A stretch of 10,028 nucleotides of DNA, from assembly GCA_023267515.1 (NCBI GenBank), contig JAHFNF010000023.1, positions 1 to 10,028 on the forward strand. Direction: 5' to 3'. The translations under genes and the position numbers were made by a program. The notes below the pieces were generated by a model, which saw nothing but the letters and a program-made list of their open reading frames with translations, was not told the origin of the DNA and did no database searches. Positions 3,649 to 7,801 of this stretch are shown one piece after another; positions within the stretch are counted from its first letter, which is position 1, and each line of letters opens with the position of its first letter. The stretch is from Candidatus Nomurabacteria bacterium. GTDB lineage: Bacteria; Patescibacteriota; Minisyncoccia; Phycocordibacterales; UBA9973.

Positions 3649-3699
3649 ATTAGATATTAGATATTAGATATTAGACATTAGAAGATTAGATAATAGACT
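3649..3699 (+). repeat. Heptad-repeat leader A (AGAYATT units)
   Basis: Starting right after the protease stop, the units run AGATATT three times, then AGACATT, AGAAGATT, AGATAAT and AGACT, ending in the ATG at 3700. A TAG falls about every seven bases, so all three frames are closed. Bases 3672-3697 recur exactly at 3803-3828. The preceding AAAAGGTCGAGAA (3633-3645, still coding) recurs at 7744-7756 before the third leader. The tract is poor in secondary structure and has no SD. Confidence 0.85.
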
Positions 3700-3801: not shown

Positions 3802-3852
3802 CTAGACATTAGAAGATTAGATAATAGATATTAGACACTAGATATTAGAAAT
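3802..3852 (+). repeat. Heptad-repeat leader B (AGAYATT units)
   Basis: Units AGACATT, AGAAGATT, AGATAAT, AGATATT, AGACACT and AGATATT lead straight into ATG 3853. The first 26 bases (3803-3828) are identical to 3672-3697 in leader A. Like leader A it contains TAG in every frame, no SD, and abuts a start codon. Confidence 0.85.
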
Positions 3853-4044
3853 ATGACTAAATCAATTTTTGCCTCCAAGACCCTGTGGTTCAATGGCATT
3901 ACTATCCTGTTTGCCGTTGTCACCTATTTTGGCTGGGCTCCCGACGCTTCGCTCGTCGCCAATACCAGTAAACTCTTAGTGACTCTGGCTCCAGTTCTGA
4001 ACTTTGGTTTGCGCTTTTGGACAACTAAACCCGTTTCGCTCTAA
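3853..4044 (+). CDS. Holin-like small membrane protein (63 aa)
   Basis: It starts MTKSIFASKTLWFNGITILF and ends LNFGLRFWTTKPVSL. Two hydrophobic stretches (about 10-29 and 36-57) surround a short GWAPDASL turn. The SKTxWFN start and the LRFxTTKP end resemble small phage holin-like proteins, which I recognise as a general style rather than a named family. A holin would form inner-membrane lesions that let the muralytic enzyme reach the wall; the transglycosylase gene lies 480 bases downstream. Translation appears to begin from the heptad leader without an SD. Confidence in the two-helix membrane topology is high, in the holin role moderate. Confidence 0.72.
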   Translation: MTKSIFASKTLWFNGITILFAVVTYFGWAPDASLVANTSKLLVTLAPVLNFGLRFWTTKPVSL

Positions 4045-4127: not shown

Positions 4128-4364
4128 ATGGCTGACAAAGTGTCTGGTGATTTGATGTTACCTTTCTCGCGAAAGGAGGTGATCCCCTATATCTCTCCTT
4201 ACGAGGAGATTGACGGCCTACTGCTTAATCTAGCAGCCGCCGCCGCTCGCTTACCCCAAGACAATCGTTTGCGCAACAAGATTTTGGCATTCGTCACCCC
4301 GACGCTGGCAATCGTGGAGCATTCACTCCCCGATACTCCACTCGTGAGTGACGAGTGCCAGTAA
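4128..4364 (+). CDS. Unknown protein (78 aa) with strong ribosome binding site
   Basis: A soluble protein beginning MADKVSGDLMLPFSRKEVIP, with a helical centre (EEIDGLLLNLAAAAARLPQD), a second helix (RLRNKILAFVTPTLAIVEHS) and an acidic tail. There is no signal peptide, Cys pair or recognised motif. It differs from its neighbours in having a near-perfect SD and in being followed within 60 bases by a strong terminator, so it may end the late transcript that begins upstream or form its own unit. Codons 14-19 hold an internal anti-SD complement (separate entry). A small regulator or lysis-control protein is possible; I do not recognise it. Confidence 0.72.
   Translation: MADKVSGDLMLPFSRKEVIPYISPYEEIDGLLLNLAAAAARLPQDNRLRNKILAFVTPTLAIVEHSLPDTPLVSDECQ
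4161..4185 (+). promoter_or_regulatory. Internal 15-base complement to the 16S rRNA 3' end, preceded by a hairpin
   Basis: GAAAGGAGGTGATCC (4171-4185) is exactly complementary to the common bacterial 16S 3' tail GGATCACCTCCTTTC. CCTTTC-TCGC-GAAAGG (4161-4176) can fold and mask its first six bases. It lies inside the 78-residue gene with no start codon at a usable distance downstream, so it is not an ordinary ribosome binding site. Programmed pausing, an RNA ribosome sponge or chance coding of SRKEVIP are the alternatives. Confidence 0.6.
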
Positions 4365-4392
4365 GCTACGCCACAGGCGAGTAAACCTCCAA

Positions 4393-4450
4393 TCCCGCTA
4401 CCTGCGGGACCCTCCGACGGCTGGGGTTTGCTTCTCCCCAGCCGTTTTTT
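4393..4450 (+). terminator. Strong intrinsic terminator with leading hairpin
   Basis: TCCCGC-TACCT-GCGGGA (4393-4409) is followed by a perfect 10-base-pair stem ACGGCTGGGG / CCCCAGCCGT (4417-4426 with 4436-4445) and then six T. This should end the transcript of the holin-like and 78-residue genes and separate the transglycosylase gene. Confidence 0.92.
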
Positions 4451-4521
4451 GTGTTAAGATAAGTGTCCGTTAGTTCCCCGTCTGGCAATACCAAAGGGGC
4501 TCTCGTCGAGCCACTTCAAGG
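4451..4521 (+). promoter_or_regulatory. Leader of the transglycosylase gene with competing hairpins
   Basis: CCCC (4476-4479) can pair with GGGG (4496-4499), while GGCTC (4498-4502) can pair with GAGCC (4508-4512). The two stems share G4498-4499, so they exclude each other. No SD is usable: AAGG touches the ATG. A weak TAAGAT (4455-4460) is the only -10 candidate. This could be a translational control leader for the lysis enzyme. Confidence 0.35.
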
Positions 4522-5034
4522 ATGAGAACCGAGAGTCCGGATAATTACAAACTTATAAAATACTTACTTTGTTTAACTCTTTTAATCTGGTTATTCCCTC
4601 AAGTCGTTATCGGCCCCACCTACGCGCAAATTGACGCTCTTACCCCCATGACTGGGGTAGATAGTCGTCTTTTGCTTAAACTCTCGTTTAACGCGTCACC
4701 AGAGGCCAATAAAGCCATGTTGGAGGGTGGGACTGACCCACCGCTGAGTCAGATTAAGGACTGGATTGTAAAATGGTCTAAATTCTATGGGGTGGATACT
4801 AATTTGTCATTGGAAGTGGCAAGGTGCGAGTCTGGGTTCAAACCTAGCGCACTTGGCGACGGGGGAATGGCCTACGGCGTTTACCAATTTTGGCCTTCCA
4901 CTTTCGACCTCTTCGCTCAAGAATTGGGGGAGAAACTGGACTACCATTCCGTGGAGGATGGAATCAAATTAGCGAACTGGGGTCTGGCTCACGGCAAAGA
5001 ATCCCACTGGAGTTGTTTTGCCCGAGTAGTATAA
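4522..5034 (+). CDS. Exported lytic transglycosylase / lysozyme-like protein
   Basis: A 170-residue murein-degrading candidate. Residues 12-36 form a signal sequence or signal anchor (KLIKYLLCLTLLIWLFPQVV) ending near TYAQ. About residues 75-165 resemble the SLT/goose-lysozyme-type catalytic fold. VDTNLSLEVARCESGF carries the likely catalytic Glu103 in the usual ES motif, followed by GDGGMAYGVYQFWPSTF and a helical end. Cys102 beside the active Glu and Cys165 (HWSCF) could form a disulfide, which fits an extracytoplasmic enzyme. It would cleave the MurNAc-GlcNAc bond of peptidoglycan during lysis or DNA entry. It stands as its own unit between two terminators. The size is typical of a single-domain lysin; no separate wall-binding domain is seen. 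Confidence 0.85.
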   Translation: MRTESPDNYKLIKYLLCLTLLIWLFPQVVIGPTYAQIDALTPMTGVDSRLLLKLSFNASPEANKAMLEGGTDPPLSQIKDWIVKWSKFYGVDTNLSLEVARCESGFKPSALGDGGMAYGVYQFWPSTFDLFAQELGEKLDYHSVEDGIKLANWGLAHGKESHWSCFARVV

Positions 5035-5035
5035 T
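5030..5035 (+). promoter_or_regulatory. Possible -10 box over the transglycosylase stop codon
   Basis: A perfect TATAAT includes the TAA stop, as in the promoters at 1922 and 9098. No good -35 box stands 16-18 bases upstream. If active, it would make a transcript of about 80 bases ending at the terminator at 5123. Confidence 0.35.
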
Positions 5036-5100
5036 AGGGGCGGGAGTAGGTTATTACGACCAATCACTTACTCTTGCTCATAGTTTTGGTGAAACAAAAG

Positions 5101-5123
5101 CTTGCCCTTCGGGGCGAGTTTTT
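5101..5123 (+). terminator. Intrinsic terminator with TTCG loop
   Basis: CTTGCCC-TTCG-GGGCGAG (one G-T wobble) followed by five T. It ends the transglycosylase transcript 67 bases after its stop. The preceding AAAA also makes a fair terminator on the other strand. Confidence 0.9.
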
Positions 5124-5130
5124 GTATTAT
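5102..5130 (+). promoter_or_regulatory. Promoter-like element inside the terminator
   Basis: TTGCCC (5102-5107), a 17-base spacer and TATTAT (5125-5130). The -35 box lies in the terminator stem. The predicted start is near 5137, just before a chain of hairpins. Confidence 0.4.
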
Positions 5131-5136
5131 AAAAGC

Positions 5137-5326
5137 ACAAGTCATTTAACTAGCCGTAGTGACAATGACTCGGAAAAGGCAAACTGTCGGGTCAGCCCTT
5201 TTCTTAAAGTAGGGTTCGCCCTCTTTGCTTAAAAAGCGAAGTTACCCGCTCTGGCCTCAAACATCCGAACGGCCGGATTGGTCAGAGGATTAAATCCACA
5301 AACGCTGGCTTACAAGGCCAGTTTTT
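5137..5326 (+). ncRNA. Candidate structured RNA of about 190 nt
   Basis: No ORF is convincing here, but consecutive foldings are visible. GAAAAGG/CCTTTTC (5173-5179 with 5197-5203) encloses CTG-TCGGGT-CAG. AGGG-TTCG-CCCT lies at 5211-5222. CTTTGCTT-AAA-AAGCGAAG lies at 5223-5241. A nested element follows, in which CTCTGGCC (5249-5256) pairs with GGTCAGAG (5280-5287) around ATCCG-AACGGC-CGGAT (5263-5278). A terminator closes the series at 5305-5326. Promoter evidence is modest. I do not recognise an Rfam family; it lacks tRNA, tmRNA and 6S hallmarks. The start is approximate. Confidence 0.5.
5305..5326 (+). terminator. Intrinsic terminator
   Basis: CTGGC-TTACAAG-GCCAG followed by five T. It closes the hairpin series upstream and would separate it from the next small RNA. 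Confidence 0.8.
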
Positions 5327-5331
5327 GTTAC

Positions 5332-5340
5332 TTATCCACA
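5332..5340 (+). promoter_or_regulatory. Consensus DnaA box 1
   Basis: TTATCCACA, an exact match to the bacterial DnaA box, between a terminator and the promoter at 5351. It could bind host DnaA for replication initiation or control the adjacent promoter. A second copy in the same orientation lies at 7139. Confidence 0.5.
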
Positions 5341-5350
5341 GAATGTTATT

Positions 5351-5377
5351 TTGACTTTAATTAGGCTCTGGTATAGT
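5351..5377 (+). promoter_or_regulatory. Extended -10 promoter for a small RNA
   Basis: TTGACT (5351-5356), a 15-base spacer and TATAGT (5372-5377), preceded by TGG, an extended -10 (TGn). The extended motif compensates for the short spacer. The predicted start, 5384-5385, falls right at the base of the 12-base-pair stem of the RNA below. Confidence 0.65.
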
Positions 5378-5383
5378 TATGGT

Positions 5384-5494
5384 AATGGTTAAAAGTAATT
5401 TCACTGTAAATGTAGAACAGCACCTGAATCTTTCGGGGATTGCTCTACTTTTAACCAGTAGCAAGAGTCCCGCCCGTTAAACGGCGGGATTTTT
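5384..5494 (+). ncRNA. Candidate small RNA of about 110 nt
   Basis: A complete small-RNA cassette: extended -10 promoter, body and terminator. TGGTTAAAAGTA (5386-5397) pairs perfectly with TACTTTTAACCA (5446-5457), closing a 48-base loop. Inside the loop AATC and GATT around TTTCGG can form a small hairpin. GTAGA (5412-5416) could instead pair with TCTAC (5444-5448), competing with the main stem. A single-stranded linker then leads to the terminator. There is no ORF with a plausible start. Its position between lysis and early modules suggests a regulatory RNA acting on phage or host. No known family is recognised. Confidence 0.62.
5468..5494 (+). terminator. Intrinsic terminator of the small RNA
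   Basis: TCCCGCC-CGTTAAAC-GGCGGGA followed by five T: a GC-rich perfect 7-base-pair stem, the third terminator within 400 bases. Confidence 0.92.
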
Positions 5495-5703
5495 GTGTGT
5501 CATAGACGCTGGGGGGCTTATAGTTGGAGCGTCTCTAAAATACGCCAACACGCTCGGCGACCACGCTGTAAATGGTAATGGCTCGGGGGAATAAGTGTGG
5601 CGCTCTCTCAACTCATTTTTCCTTAATCGGACTATGGGGGAGGGGGGTGCTACAAATGGTCTCGAAAGAATTAAGTAATTAATACAATGCAATAAACCCA
5701 ACT
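5495..5703 (+). other. G-rich intergenic region before the early operon
   Basis: No credible gene is seen on either strand. AGACGCT (5504-5510) pairs with AGCGTCT (5528-5534). CGCCAACAC (5543-5551) nearly pairs with GTGTGGCG (5597-5604). G runs occur at 5511-5516, 5585-5589 and 5636-5647 (GGGGGAGGGGGG). The 10-mer ATGGTAATGG occurs here (5573-5582) and in the small RNA start (5379-5388). TACAAT (5683-5688) could be a -10 box for the nuclease gene, but its -35 is poor. This may be a regulatory, origin or packaging region; nothing distinguishes these. Confidence 0.45.
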
Positions 5704-6042
5704 ATGAGATATGGGAATTTAAGAAACTACAAAAAGCATTTGAGATTCAAAAAAGATTTTAAGAATCCGGCCGAGCAAGAGTTCAAAAAAATGTGCGAAA
5801 AGTTCACTGTCAATTTTATTCGCAAGGGCTATCCCGATTTTATAATTCTTGACCAAGTAGGAGAAATAGTTGGATTTGTTGAGGTGAAACCTAATAAAGA
5901 ATCCAAATTGAGACCAACCCAGTTGCGATTCGAGAGATTTTGTATTCGGCATAATATTCCTTTCTTTTTGTGGACACCAGAAACTGATGGAAAATTACTG
6001 GAGAATTTTTTAGGCCAGCATAGCAATGAAACCCCTAACTAA
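5704..6042 (+). CDS. VRR-NUC domain nuclease
   Basis: A 112-residue single-domain nuclease of the PD-(D/E)XK superfamily, VRR-NUC type. The core is visible in order: Glu24 in an N-terminal helix (NPAEQEFKKMCEK), GYPDFIIL with Asp45, then VGFVEVKPN giving Glu60-X-Lys62, and Gln73 in LRPTQLRFERF, followed by NIPFFLWTP. Stand-alone VRR-NUC proteins of this length are common in phage replication and recombination modules, where they are expected to cut branched or single-strand-containing DNA. It is the first gene of the early operon and overlaps the next by 17 bases. No SD is seen; a poor promoter candidate lies 16 bases upstream. Confidence 0.9.
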   Translation: MRYGNLRNYKKHLRFKKDFKNPAEQEFKKMCEKFTVNFIRKGYPDFIILDQVGEIVGFVEVKPNKESKLRPTQLRFERFCIRHNIPFFLWTPETDGKLLENFLGQHSNETPN

Positions 6043-6274
6043 CTTCTTACAAGTTCTCAAACCCAAAGCTCATAGTGAGCGCGCCGAACTCCTTGGTGAA
6101 CTATTTATTTACCTAGAATCCGAATGGCGTGGTCTCAAACCTTTAACGATAAAATACCTAGCTTTTAGAACCTCCCACTTAGAAGTAAAGGATTTAAGGT
6201 ATTTATTATCCATTTCGCGCGACTCACGGAACTTTGGTAAAACCTTTTGGGGAGCGCTCAAGCCAAGAGTATGA
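6026..6274 (+). CDS. Unknown small protein (82 aa)
   Basis: Begins MKPLTNFLQVLKPKAHSERA and is largely helical, with EWRGLKPLTIKYLAFRTSH followed by LEVKDLRYLLSISRDSRNFG and a final KTFWGALKPR. The pattern of helix, turn, helix and a basic Trp-containing end could be a small winged-helix or other DNA-binding fold, but no family is recognised. It overlaps the nuclease gene by 17 bases and the next gene by 4 (ATGA), so it belongs to the same operon. It is coded at normal density and lacks signals for export. Gene reality is good; function is unknown. Confidence 0.7.
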   Translation: MKPLTNFLQVLKPKAHSERAELLGELFIYLESEWRGLKPLTIKYLAFRTSHLEVKDLRYLLSISRDSRNFGKTFWGALKPRV

Positions 6275-7138: not shown

Positions 7139-7147
7139 TTATCCACA
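7139..7147 (+). promoter_or_regulatory. Consensus DnaA box 2
   Basis: TTATCCACA immediately after the zinc-protein stop and 9 bases before a -35 box. It has the same orientation as the box at 5332, so DnaA could act on replication or on the promoter that follows. Confidence 0.5.
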
Positions 7148-7156
7148 CCCCATTAC

Positions 7157-7185
7157 TTGACTACTAGCCACTAATAGATTAGACT
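7157..7185 (+). promoter_or_regulatory. Promoter-like element left of the inverted-repeat cassette
   Basis: TTGACT (7157-7162), a 17-base spacer and TAGACT (7180-7185). The start near 7192 would fall at the outer edge of the left inverted repeat, so the transcript would begin with the repeat. The spacer is rich in TAG, like the heptad leaders. Confidence 0.45.
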
Positions 7186-7189
7186 AGGG

Positions 7190-7261
7190 TTAGTCGGTCG
7201 TTGAGCGGGGGGAGAAAGTGCTAAAAGTCAGGACGGTTTGGTCATTGACAATTAGGGAGAG
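7190..7261 (+). repeat. Left arm of an imperfect inverted repeat of about 75 bases
   Basis: This arm matches the reverse complement of 7668-7744. The innermost 21 bases (7241-7261, ending TCATTGACAATTAGGGAGAG) agree at 19 positions. The outer part (TTAGTCGGTCGTTGAGCGGG) agrees at 16 of 20, all differences being transitions. The middle contains CTAAAAG and TCAGGA in both arms with small gaps. The arms bound a 406-base interior holding two small genes. Confidence 0.8.
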
Positions 7262-7272
7262 AAAATAACAAT
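7245..7272 (+). promoter_or_regulatory. Possible promoter in the left arm
   Basis: TTGACA (7245-7250) with AACAAT (7267-7272) after 16 bases. The start would fall at or next to ATG 7280, giving a leaderless message. The equivalent place in the right arm, read leftward, has CTGGCA and GATAAT, so both arms may be inward-facing promoters. Confidence 0.4.
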
Positions 7273-7279
7273 AAAAAAT

Positions 7280-7474
7280 ATGCCAACAAAATTGAGTTTG
7301 AAAGATCGGCGGATGTTTGCAAGAATGTTGGGAAACAATGCAGATCGTATCTTGTCCGCATTATCTAGCTCTTATTGTGAAGCAGATGACAAAGAGTTCA
7401 AAGGCGACTTCGGTATTAGCATTAAGGAAATGACAAAGGTTGTTGAAAATGTGATTAACTACTTCAACAACTAG
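7280..7474 (+). CDS. Unknown small protein (64 aa) inside the inverted-repeat cassette
   Basis: Begins MPTKLSLKDRRMFARMLGNN, followed by DRILSALSSSYCEADDKEF, an acidic loop and a final helix (IKEMTKVVENVINYFNN). It appears to be all helical and soluble, without a Zn site or signal. Its start lies 18 bases inside the left repeat arm and its stop directly abuts the interleaved-stem element at 7475. No SD is present, and the message may be leaderless. A small helical regulator, such as an antirepressor or antitoxin, would fit a self-contained cassette, but no family is recognised and the role is open. Confidence 0.65.
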   Translation: MPTKLSLKDRRMFARMLGNNADRILSALSSSYCEADDKEFKGDFGISIKEMTKVVENVINYFNN

Positions 7475-7523
7475 CACGGCCATCTTCGGAGGGACACCCC
7501 GATGGCGGTGCGTGTCTCCGAAG
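7475..7523 (+). ncRNA. Interleaved stems: pseudoknot or two-state RNA switch
   Basis: Segment A, CACGGCCATC (7475-7484), pairs with A', GATGGCGGTG (7501-7510), at 9 of 10 positions. Segment B, CTTCGGAGGGACAC (7484-7497), pairs with B', GTGTCTCCGAAG (7512-7523), with 12 pairs and a two-base bulge. The order A-B-A'-B' allows an H-type pseudoknot or two mutually exclusive hairpins. It fills the gap between the stop of the 64-residue gene and the AT-rich start region of the zinc ribbon gene, so it could gate translation or processing. No known riboswitch or ribozyme family is recognised. Confidence 0.55.
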
Positions 7524-7534
7524 CCAATAATAAA

Positions 7535-7657
7535 ATGAAACAGAATTTAGCTTCAATGAGACGGTGGTTAAGATTATGTATTAAGTGTGGCAAAGAAGTT
7601 TCTAGGAAAAAGCACCCGAACAGTCTTTTGTGTCACCAATGTTTAGTTAAAAAATAA
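7535..7657 (+). CDS. Miniature zinc ribbon protein (40 aa)
   Basis: A short protein starting MKQNLASMRRWLRLCIKCGK and ending CHQCLVKK. Cys15/Cys18 and Cys33/Cys36 are spaced as in a minimal zinc ribbon, with a strongly basic knuckle (SRKKHPNS). It lies inside the inverted-repeat cassette, 11 bases after the interleaved-stem element, and its stop falls 10 bases before the right arm. The AATAATAAA before the ATG offers an unstructured start without an SD. A nucleic-acid-binding regulator is plausible. Its small size makes independent evidence desirable, but the paired CxxC motifs support it. Confidence 0.62.
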   Translation: MKQNLASMRRWLRLCIKCGKEVSRKKHPNSLLCHQCLVKK

Positions 7658-7667
7658 ATTATCAGCT

Positions 7668-7744
7668 CTCTCCCTAATTGCCAGTGACTAGACCTATCCT
7701 GAACCTTTAGGATTGATTGCTTCTCCCGCCCAGCGACTGATTAA
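7668..7744 (-). repeat. Right arm of the inverted repeat
   Basis: Reverse-complement partner of 7190-7261; the - strand copy reads TTAATCAGTCGCTGGGCGGG at the outer end and CACTGGCAATTAGGGAGAG at the inner end. It carries small insertions relative to the left arm. AGACTAG occurs just outside both arms (7181-7187 and 7756-7762), a possible target duplication, although it is also a unit of the heptad leaders. Confidence 0.8.
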
Positions 7745-7753
7745 AAAGGTCGA

Positions 7754-7801
7754 GAAGACTAGACACTAGAGATTAGATTTTAGACACTAGATTTTAGACA
7801 A
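7754..7801 (+). repeat. Heptad-repeat leader C
   Basis: Units AGACT, AGACACT, AGAGATT, AGATTTT, AGACACT, AGATTTT and AGACAA run into ATG 7802. It is preceded by AAAAGGTCGAGAA (7744-7756), the same 13 bases that precede leader A. The layout matches leaders A and B although the units have drifted. Confidence 0.8.

Follow-up and report, generated by a model that had tools for sequence, protein, structure and literature searches.

The pyrBI operon of Escherichia coli would be the closest described parallel, in its logic, to the element reported here, which we call unit C. In excerpts of two published accounts (PMC4824070, PMC5021804), pyrBI carries a short leader gene (pyrL) with an intrinsic terminator inside the coding stretch, an arrangement found in unit C as well, and a nearby ribosome suppresses termination, as it may do in unit C. 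The excerpts add that ribosomes repress a terminator almost fully when a stop codon is only a few bases away (PMC4824070) and that pyrBI attenuation needs tight coupling over the leader gene (PMC5021804). The pyrBI leader gene is given there as 135 bp (PMC4824070), whereas the leader frames here have 29-38 codons. Unlike pyrBI, unit C has a predicted leaderless start, a long-range stem that can take in its AUG and a stop codon placed in the terminator loop, and it stands at the head of a phage early operon; the likeness drawn here is one of logic. Attenuators of amino-acid biosynthesis operons of the trp type also share a leader peptide, hairpins and a terminator with unit C, but in the excerpted account (PMC4824070) over 20 bp separate their terminators from the leader gene upstream, whereas the terminator of unit C overlaps its frame. 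In further contrast to the trp type, inspection by eye revealed no run of a single codon in the unit C frames.

Phage small RNAs such as oop, 24B_1 and VpdS have their own promoter and terminator. Like the predicted unit C transcript they are short phage RNAs, but in the excerpted source (PMC12197685) they act on other RNAs or genes, whereas unit C recurs before an early operon in all four loci known to us. DnaA boxes at a phage promoter region are also described for lambda, where, according to an excerpt of PMC3985674, they are located downstream of pO near the origin; here they lie upstream of the -35 element, mostly by 8-9 nt. In open-access literature, as far as titles and the first lines of abstracts tell, no such element is named under phage leader-peptide attenuation with leaderless starts or early-gene attenuation, nor under phage small RNAs in this phylum or DnaA boxes and leaderless promoters in the radiation. 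To our knowledge, how phages of uncultivated small-genome bacteria control their genes has been little explored. Unit C may be leader-peptide transcription attenuation, an already known kind of control, in an altered form.

The window, meaning the whole stretch of DNA that was analysed, is a contig of 10,028 bases from a 644-kb genome bin of 76 contigs. Its gene content is phage-like, with a tail fibre, an SLT transglycosylase, a VRR-NUC nuclease, and NinG-like and HNH nucleases, and by eye also a papain-like protease and short membrane proteins. Between the lysis gene and the first early gene, 669 nt (5035-5703) are free of listed genes. This is the longest of the 25 gene-to-gene intervals in the window gene list, the runner-up being 157 nt, and it bears out an earlier note on this DNA which had called a noncoding stretch of about 670 bases unusual for a packed genome. 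The dense hairpins reported there were also confirmed. The + strand of the gap folds with z = -6.5 relative to shuffles (0/20 as good). Units A, B and C reach -5.0, -4.1 and -5.5, and still -5.2, -3.3 and -3.5 after removal of their terminators (0/300 shuffles each in both cases). Two further kinds of repeat were seen elsewhere in the window. A 28-nt inverted repeat (86%; 7235-7262 and 7667-7694) flanks small frames at 7280-7474 and 7502-7657 and resembles a small cassette or mobile element. Short tandem repeats of the ATTAGAT type occur at 3649-3697, 3816-3853 and 7758-7800, each just before the start codon of a small frame.

Table 1 Features of the gap and its flanking genes in the window
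Feature	Coordinates	Strand	Basis or remark
Lysis gene (SLT transglycosylase) preceding the gap	4522..5034	+	Pfam SLT, E 3.6e-7
Unit A hairpin, directly 3' of the lysis gene stop	5038..5079	+	fold of 5037-5081
Unit A intrinsic terminator	5094..5125	+	14-bp hairpin into T run
Unit B multi-hairpin stretch	5136..5297	+	z -3.3, 0/300 shuffles; promoter at background level
Unit B intrinsic terminator	5298..5328	+	hairpin with T run
Unit C	5332-5496	+	box, promoter, stem, frame, terminator
DnaA-box-like motif TTATCCACA	5332..5340	+	3 copies in window vs 0.08 expected
Unit C promoter	5351..5377	+	TTGACT, 15-nt spacer, extended -10 TGG TATAGT
Short leaderless frame, 31 codons	5385..5480	+	AUG at predicted +1
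Closing stem, 5' arm	5386..5397	+	12-bp stem
Closing stem, 3' arm	5446..5457	+	12-bp stem
Unit C intrinsic terminator	5461..5496	+	fold; loop 5475-5482 contains the stop codon
Leader, terminator C to first early gene	5497..5703	+	short weak similarity to L075
VRR-NUC nuclease, first early gene	5704..6042	+	Pfam VRR_NUC, E 1.5e-6; 63% identical in L001
Small early protein, common to four element-bearing phages	6026..6274	+	SER near N terminus, aromatic C-terminal part

The earlier note had read the gap as a tandem array of three promoter-terminator units without open reading frames. All three terminators proved to be hairpins with T runs (Table 1). A mechanical scan of 5000-5720 returned three terminator-like sites against 0.8 expected, namely B, C and one on the - strand; terminator A is absent from its list. 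Promoters were scored with a weight matrix, for which the 95% background level for the best site in 209 nt is 11.8. On this scale the site at 5372 scores 12.9, while those at 5030 (9.1) and 5125 (10.3) do not rise above background. Of the three proposed promoter-terminator units one is therefore left: only unit C has its own promoter and terminator. Its promoter score is matched or exceeded at only three sites, itself included, among 20056 contig positions (same matrix). The mechanical scan of the same interval gave two promoter-like sites against 1.1 expected, a list that includes 5125 and lacks 5030 and 5372. The array reading is partly supported, in that one unit is real and recurrent.

Unit A (5038-5125) appears to close the lysis operon at its 3' end. 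Its hairpin folds well on the + strand only (5037-5081, z = -6.4 vs -1.8 on the - strand), which points to a structure at the RNA level. Unit B (5136-5328) is structured and lacks a convincing promoter; its middle, too, folds well on the + strand only (z = -3.1 vs -0.65), which again speaks for RNA. Hairpin C is alike on both strands (z = -3.2 on + vs -3.05 on -). Where two or three small RNAs had been expected, production of one structured short RNA, with its end at the third terminator, is likely; A and B found no support as separate small RNAs. Base pairing between the units was considered as well and set aside, as shuffles did as well as the A-B, A-C and B-C duplexes in 175, 69 and 242 of 300 cases, respectively. 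Ahead of the SLT gene, the stretch 4365-4450 forms very stable hairpins and includes a strong terminator (z = -5.9), and a frame at 4128-4364 contains AAAGGAGGTGATCC (4172-4185; 0.00 expected), which we take to be the complement of the 16S rRNA 3' tail.

Codon use was scored for eight frames inside or overlapping the gap, and the best value was 0.065, over 33 codons. Twelve known genes range from -0.02 to 0.16, and wrong frames average -0.105 (sd 0.089, maximum 0.057); short frames are thus not judgeable by codon use. The statement that no plausible coding frame exists agrees with this test, weak as it is for short frames, but comparison with other phages singles out the 31-codon frame in unit C as meaningful. 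A conserved protein frame over the gap, which by the earlier note would have spoken against its reading, was looked for and did not turn up. In L001, the one locus with a clear relative of the VRR-NUC gene, a frame of 274 codons (2145-2969) does cover the gap and is unlikely by composition (3.5e-7 per start); its codon use is that of a wrong frame, and it shows no similarity to the window. The L001 gap is structured and has no clear unit C, although terminator-like hairpins are present and a box lies at a similar distance. A 45-nt RNA motif with a covarying stem is common to L001 (2751-2793) and L073 (11334-11378), before the early operon (73%, E 1.6e-4 in a tiny search).

Searches with the gap as DNA found no homologs in phages. 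Among 379 genomes of the phylum (about 0.4-2 Mb each), five gave matches, namely its own copy and four short ones, three of them at terminators and one at a -10 region. Rfam returned three matches for the window and L001 at E up to 1, each below half its gathering score, and none for L069, L073, L075 and L080 at E up to 5. A weak match to freshwater-1 in L001 lies below the cut-off.

Three more phage loci have the anatomy of unit C with other letters in the stem: L069, L073 and L075 (L099 is a duplicate of L075). The order common to the four distinct loci is box, TTGAC, TATA, AUG at +1, closing stem, and terminator with the stop codon in its loop or apex. L069 was first spotted not by structure but by 17 letters, starting at the -10 element, that are identical to those of the window; the unit C promoter elements recur in it, and its closing stem sits at the position matching that of the window with different letters. 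L073 and L075 were retrieved by structure scans of collected loci in which the stem was a search criterion, so their pairing is partly due to selection. All 12 stem pairs can form in all four loci (standard pairs in 48/48 cells, including two G-U), and two-sided changes are seen over the four at 10 of the 12 positions. Between the window and L069, 12/12 pairs are kept, 6/12 with both sides changed. Minimum-energy folds contain the full stem in the window only; in L073 and L075 the outer seven pairs are kept and the rest slipped, and in L069 a longer alternative stem replaces the closing stem.

The AUG follows the -10 element by 6-7 nt in all four loci, which is the predicted +1, and opens frames of 29-38 codons that overlap the terminator at the sequence level in 4/4 members. 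The stop codon lies in the terminator loop in the window (TAA, 5478-5480), L073 and L075, and in the apex in L069. By shuffling, the chances of the frames staying open are 0.13, 0.33, 0.22 and 0.19. With rough factors of our own for the AUG placement (2/64) and the in-frame loop stop (1/3), the joint chance is about 2e-11, a post hoc figure that is only indicative. Short frames that follow a promoter and end in a terminator loop were sought on both strands of 230 sources (1.95 Mb, the window among them), with ten matches. All five that have a box, four of them distinct, show +1 stems of 12-14 bp, and the five boxless ones have 5-9. A scan with TTGACA promoters gave, among the matches listed, no further member with a frame.

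In all four loci the element lies before the early operon, with its intrinsic terminator between the promoter and the first structural gene on the same strand. Depending on the start chosen, about 100-210 nt separate terminator and first gene; in the window this stretch (5495-5703) folds with z = -1.8, and 17/300 shuffles are as good. The small early protein is encoded by gene 1 in L073, gene 2 in the window and L075, and about gene 3 in L069. A position between lysis and early genes, as the earlier note had it, applies to the window and to L069, each with an SLT gene immediately upstream (in L069 by eye); by eye, L069 has SLT-like and holin-like genes on one side and early genes on the other. 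It does not extend to L073, whose nearby SLT-like gene is divergent and separated by other frames (by eye), or to L075, in whose surroundings no SLT gene was seen by eye. L073 has a fair second promoter after its terminator (score 11.1 vs its 95% background of 10.6, same matrix).

The element is present in four of the eight distinct collected loci with the small early protein, which gives no frequency estimate since the loci were mostly collected via the box promoter. Among the others, in L077 a box promoter is followed at once by the small early protein; L080 combines such a promoter with a different structured leader and a terminator, without a frame of the unit C type; a scan of L048 showed no element; and L239 offers just 296 nt upstream of the small early protein. 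A search for the small early protein family in the 379 genomes returned its own copy and three matches read as host genes, not phage. These relatives (L265, L266, L267) lie in apparent host chromosomes near murA, mreB and def/fmt, as judged by eye. Other searches for VRR-NUC relatives left L001 as the sole clear one, with a weak match in G028 (E 6.9e-4, 30%, stop inside).

The box also occurs at other promoters. Two of the three TTATCCACA copies in the window sit 9-10 nt before TTGACT, and L001 contains three copies against 0.07 expected. In IMG/VR, the order box-gap-TTGACT-gap-TATA was found in 90 stretches, compared with 19 for the reversed box, and the gap from box to promoter peaks at 8-9 nt (45/80, for 80 of the 90 stretches). 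On the host side, the pattern with TTGACA or TTGACT occurs at 40 places in 35/379 genomes, and the reversed pattern at none. Two of the 30 host box promoters read in detail head dnaA (by eye) with AUG at +1; box promoters at dnaA itself are in keeping with a true DnaA box. A second box promoter of the window (TTATCCACA, TTGACT, TAGACT; 7139-7185) lies within a 144-nt gap. Five others (L286, L287, L289, L291 and L292, from G461, G261, G010, G051 and G345) carry a GTGAAC..GTTCAC palindrome, presumably SOS-box-like, between -35 and -10.

An AUG near +1 was found at 34/173 distinct phage-side box promoters, as against 661/8934 TATANT sites (7.4%); for boxless promoters the count is 13/93. Stems of at least 11 anchored at +1 occur at 6/177 box promoters compared with 55/8092 TATANT sites (Fisher p 0.0018), and at 1/86 boxless promoters. 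Two of the six are L069 and L073, and the remaining four have no frame of the unit C type. As +1 stems are commoner at box promoters, they may be a wider habit of the class, with frame and terminator found in a subset. In the box-promoter leaders of L119 (-) and L192 (+4651), the 3' arm of the +1 stem lies, by eye, inside the loop of a later hairpin, the two folds being mutually exclusive.

An AUG at +1 and a stop codon inside the terminator loop favor a cis-acting leader over trans-acting small RNAs, and unit C is probably such a leader. More specifically, it is quite possible, and the reading we tentatively adopt, that unit C is the head of the early operon and acts as a transcription attenuator read by ribosomes through a leaderless leader peptide. 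From the observed anatomy, recurrence, stem covariation and position, we infer start site, translation, readthrough and RNA release as follows. A DnaA-box-tagged promoter of the sigma-A type would start an RNA with AUG as its first codon. While this RNA is short, a ribosome would load on the 5' AUG and translate about 30 codons to the stop in the terminator loop. There it would hold the terminator open, and the polymerase would continue into the early genes. If no ribosome arrived soon enough, synthesis would proceed through the 3' stem arm, the AUG would be buried, the terminator would form, and a stable RNA of about 110 nt would be released. Unit A is taken here as the lysis-operon end and unit B as a structured stretch. 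Several observations speak against the attenuator reading: the set has just four distinct members, two of them with pairing partly due to selection; minimum-energy folds of three members do not keep the full stem; L192 combines stem and terminator without a frame; L080 and L077 have the box promoter but no such frame or leader, respectively; and L073 has its second promoter beyond the terminator.

To follow the mean pairing of the first seven bases, growing transcripts were folded by partition function. In the window and L073 it is 0.03-0.45 up to 60 nt, and from about 66-72 nt on it reaches 0.7-0.93 in the window, L073 and L075. L075 shows pairing of these bases at 30-42 nt, too, followed by opening at 54-60. 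L069 reaches 0.82 at 72-78 nt and returns to about 0.4 from 90 nt, because an alternative stem frees the AUG, so that its pairing is only transient. Masking a ribosome footprint at the stop removed the terminator in silico in 4/4 loci, a loss that follows from the placement of the mask and is a matter of geometry, not functional evidence.

It is unlikely that unit C is instead a stand-alone phage small RNA, a stable transcript of about 110 nt that pairs with or binds other targets while the frame is incidental. Promoter, compact structure and terminator are what a small RNA gene requires, a 5' end inside a stem would be stable, and L192 (+4651) has a stem and terminator, with the box in reverse orientation, without any frame. 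However, the loop sequences are hardly conserved across members (by eye), and such an RNA would not call for an AUG at +1 with a stop in the terminator loop or apex, or for the place just before the early operon, all found in 4/4; among units A, B and C themselves, pairing showed no advantage over shuffles. Rather unlikely, too, is a role as 5' stabilizer and punctuation, in which the +1 stem protects the early mRNA and the terminators merely insulate operons. The excess of long +1 stems at box promoters would fit, but an RNA ending before the operon and a stop codon in the terminator loop are left unexplained.

Quite improbable is a leaderless micro-gene whose small protein is itself the product. 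Leaderless ATG starts are common behind box promoters, as counted above, but the four leader peptides have no sequence in common (by eye), codon scoring (-0.06 for 5379-5480) tells nothing about the frame and the stem covariation is left unexplained. A replication origin or other DNA-level site, with box and inverted repeats acting as DNA, is highly improbable: the boxes are enriched in the window and L001 and a shallow local minimum of cumulative GC skew lies near the gap but outside it (4251-4750), but the boxes are single and unclustered (four within one mismatch in the whole window), mostly precede -35 elements at the distance noted above, and hairpin A folds well on one strand only.

Two further candidates were set aside. 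For the unit C loop, a Cas12a-type repeat or an RNA anti-CRISPR, judged against a consensus, was dropped because similar fuzzy matches occur elsewhere in the window; the cas12a profile matched 0/100 genomes, with its control likewise silent in all, so that absence is not implied. For a guide-RNA array of the TIGR type, the gap lacks a repeat array and has one 13-nt pair, at two terminators only.

The ribosome-read attenuator can be extended to a gate on the early operon, in which the DnaA-box promoter ties expression to the host replication state and the 5' AUG, kinetically buried in the stem, sets readthrough by the speed of ribosome loading. We regard this extension as speculative and somewhat doubtful. 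If it is true, unit C would stand for a kind of phage early-operon gate not described before, in a phylum of small-genome bacteria, and early genes would open only in cells with DnaA and free ribosomes. Leaderless initiation as the sensor would be a new wiring for an attenuator and would make the role of leaderless translation in these hosts testable. The box-plus-promoter pattern also serves as a handle for reading promoters across the phylum.
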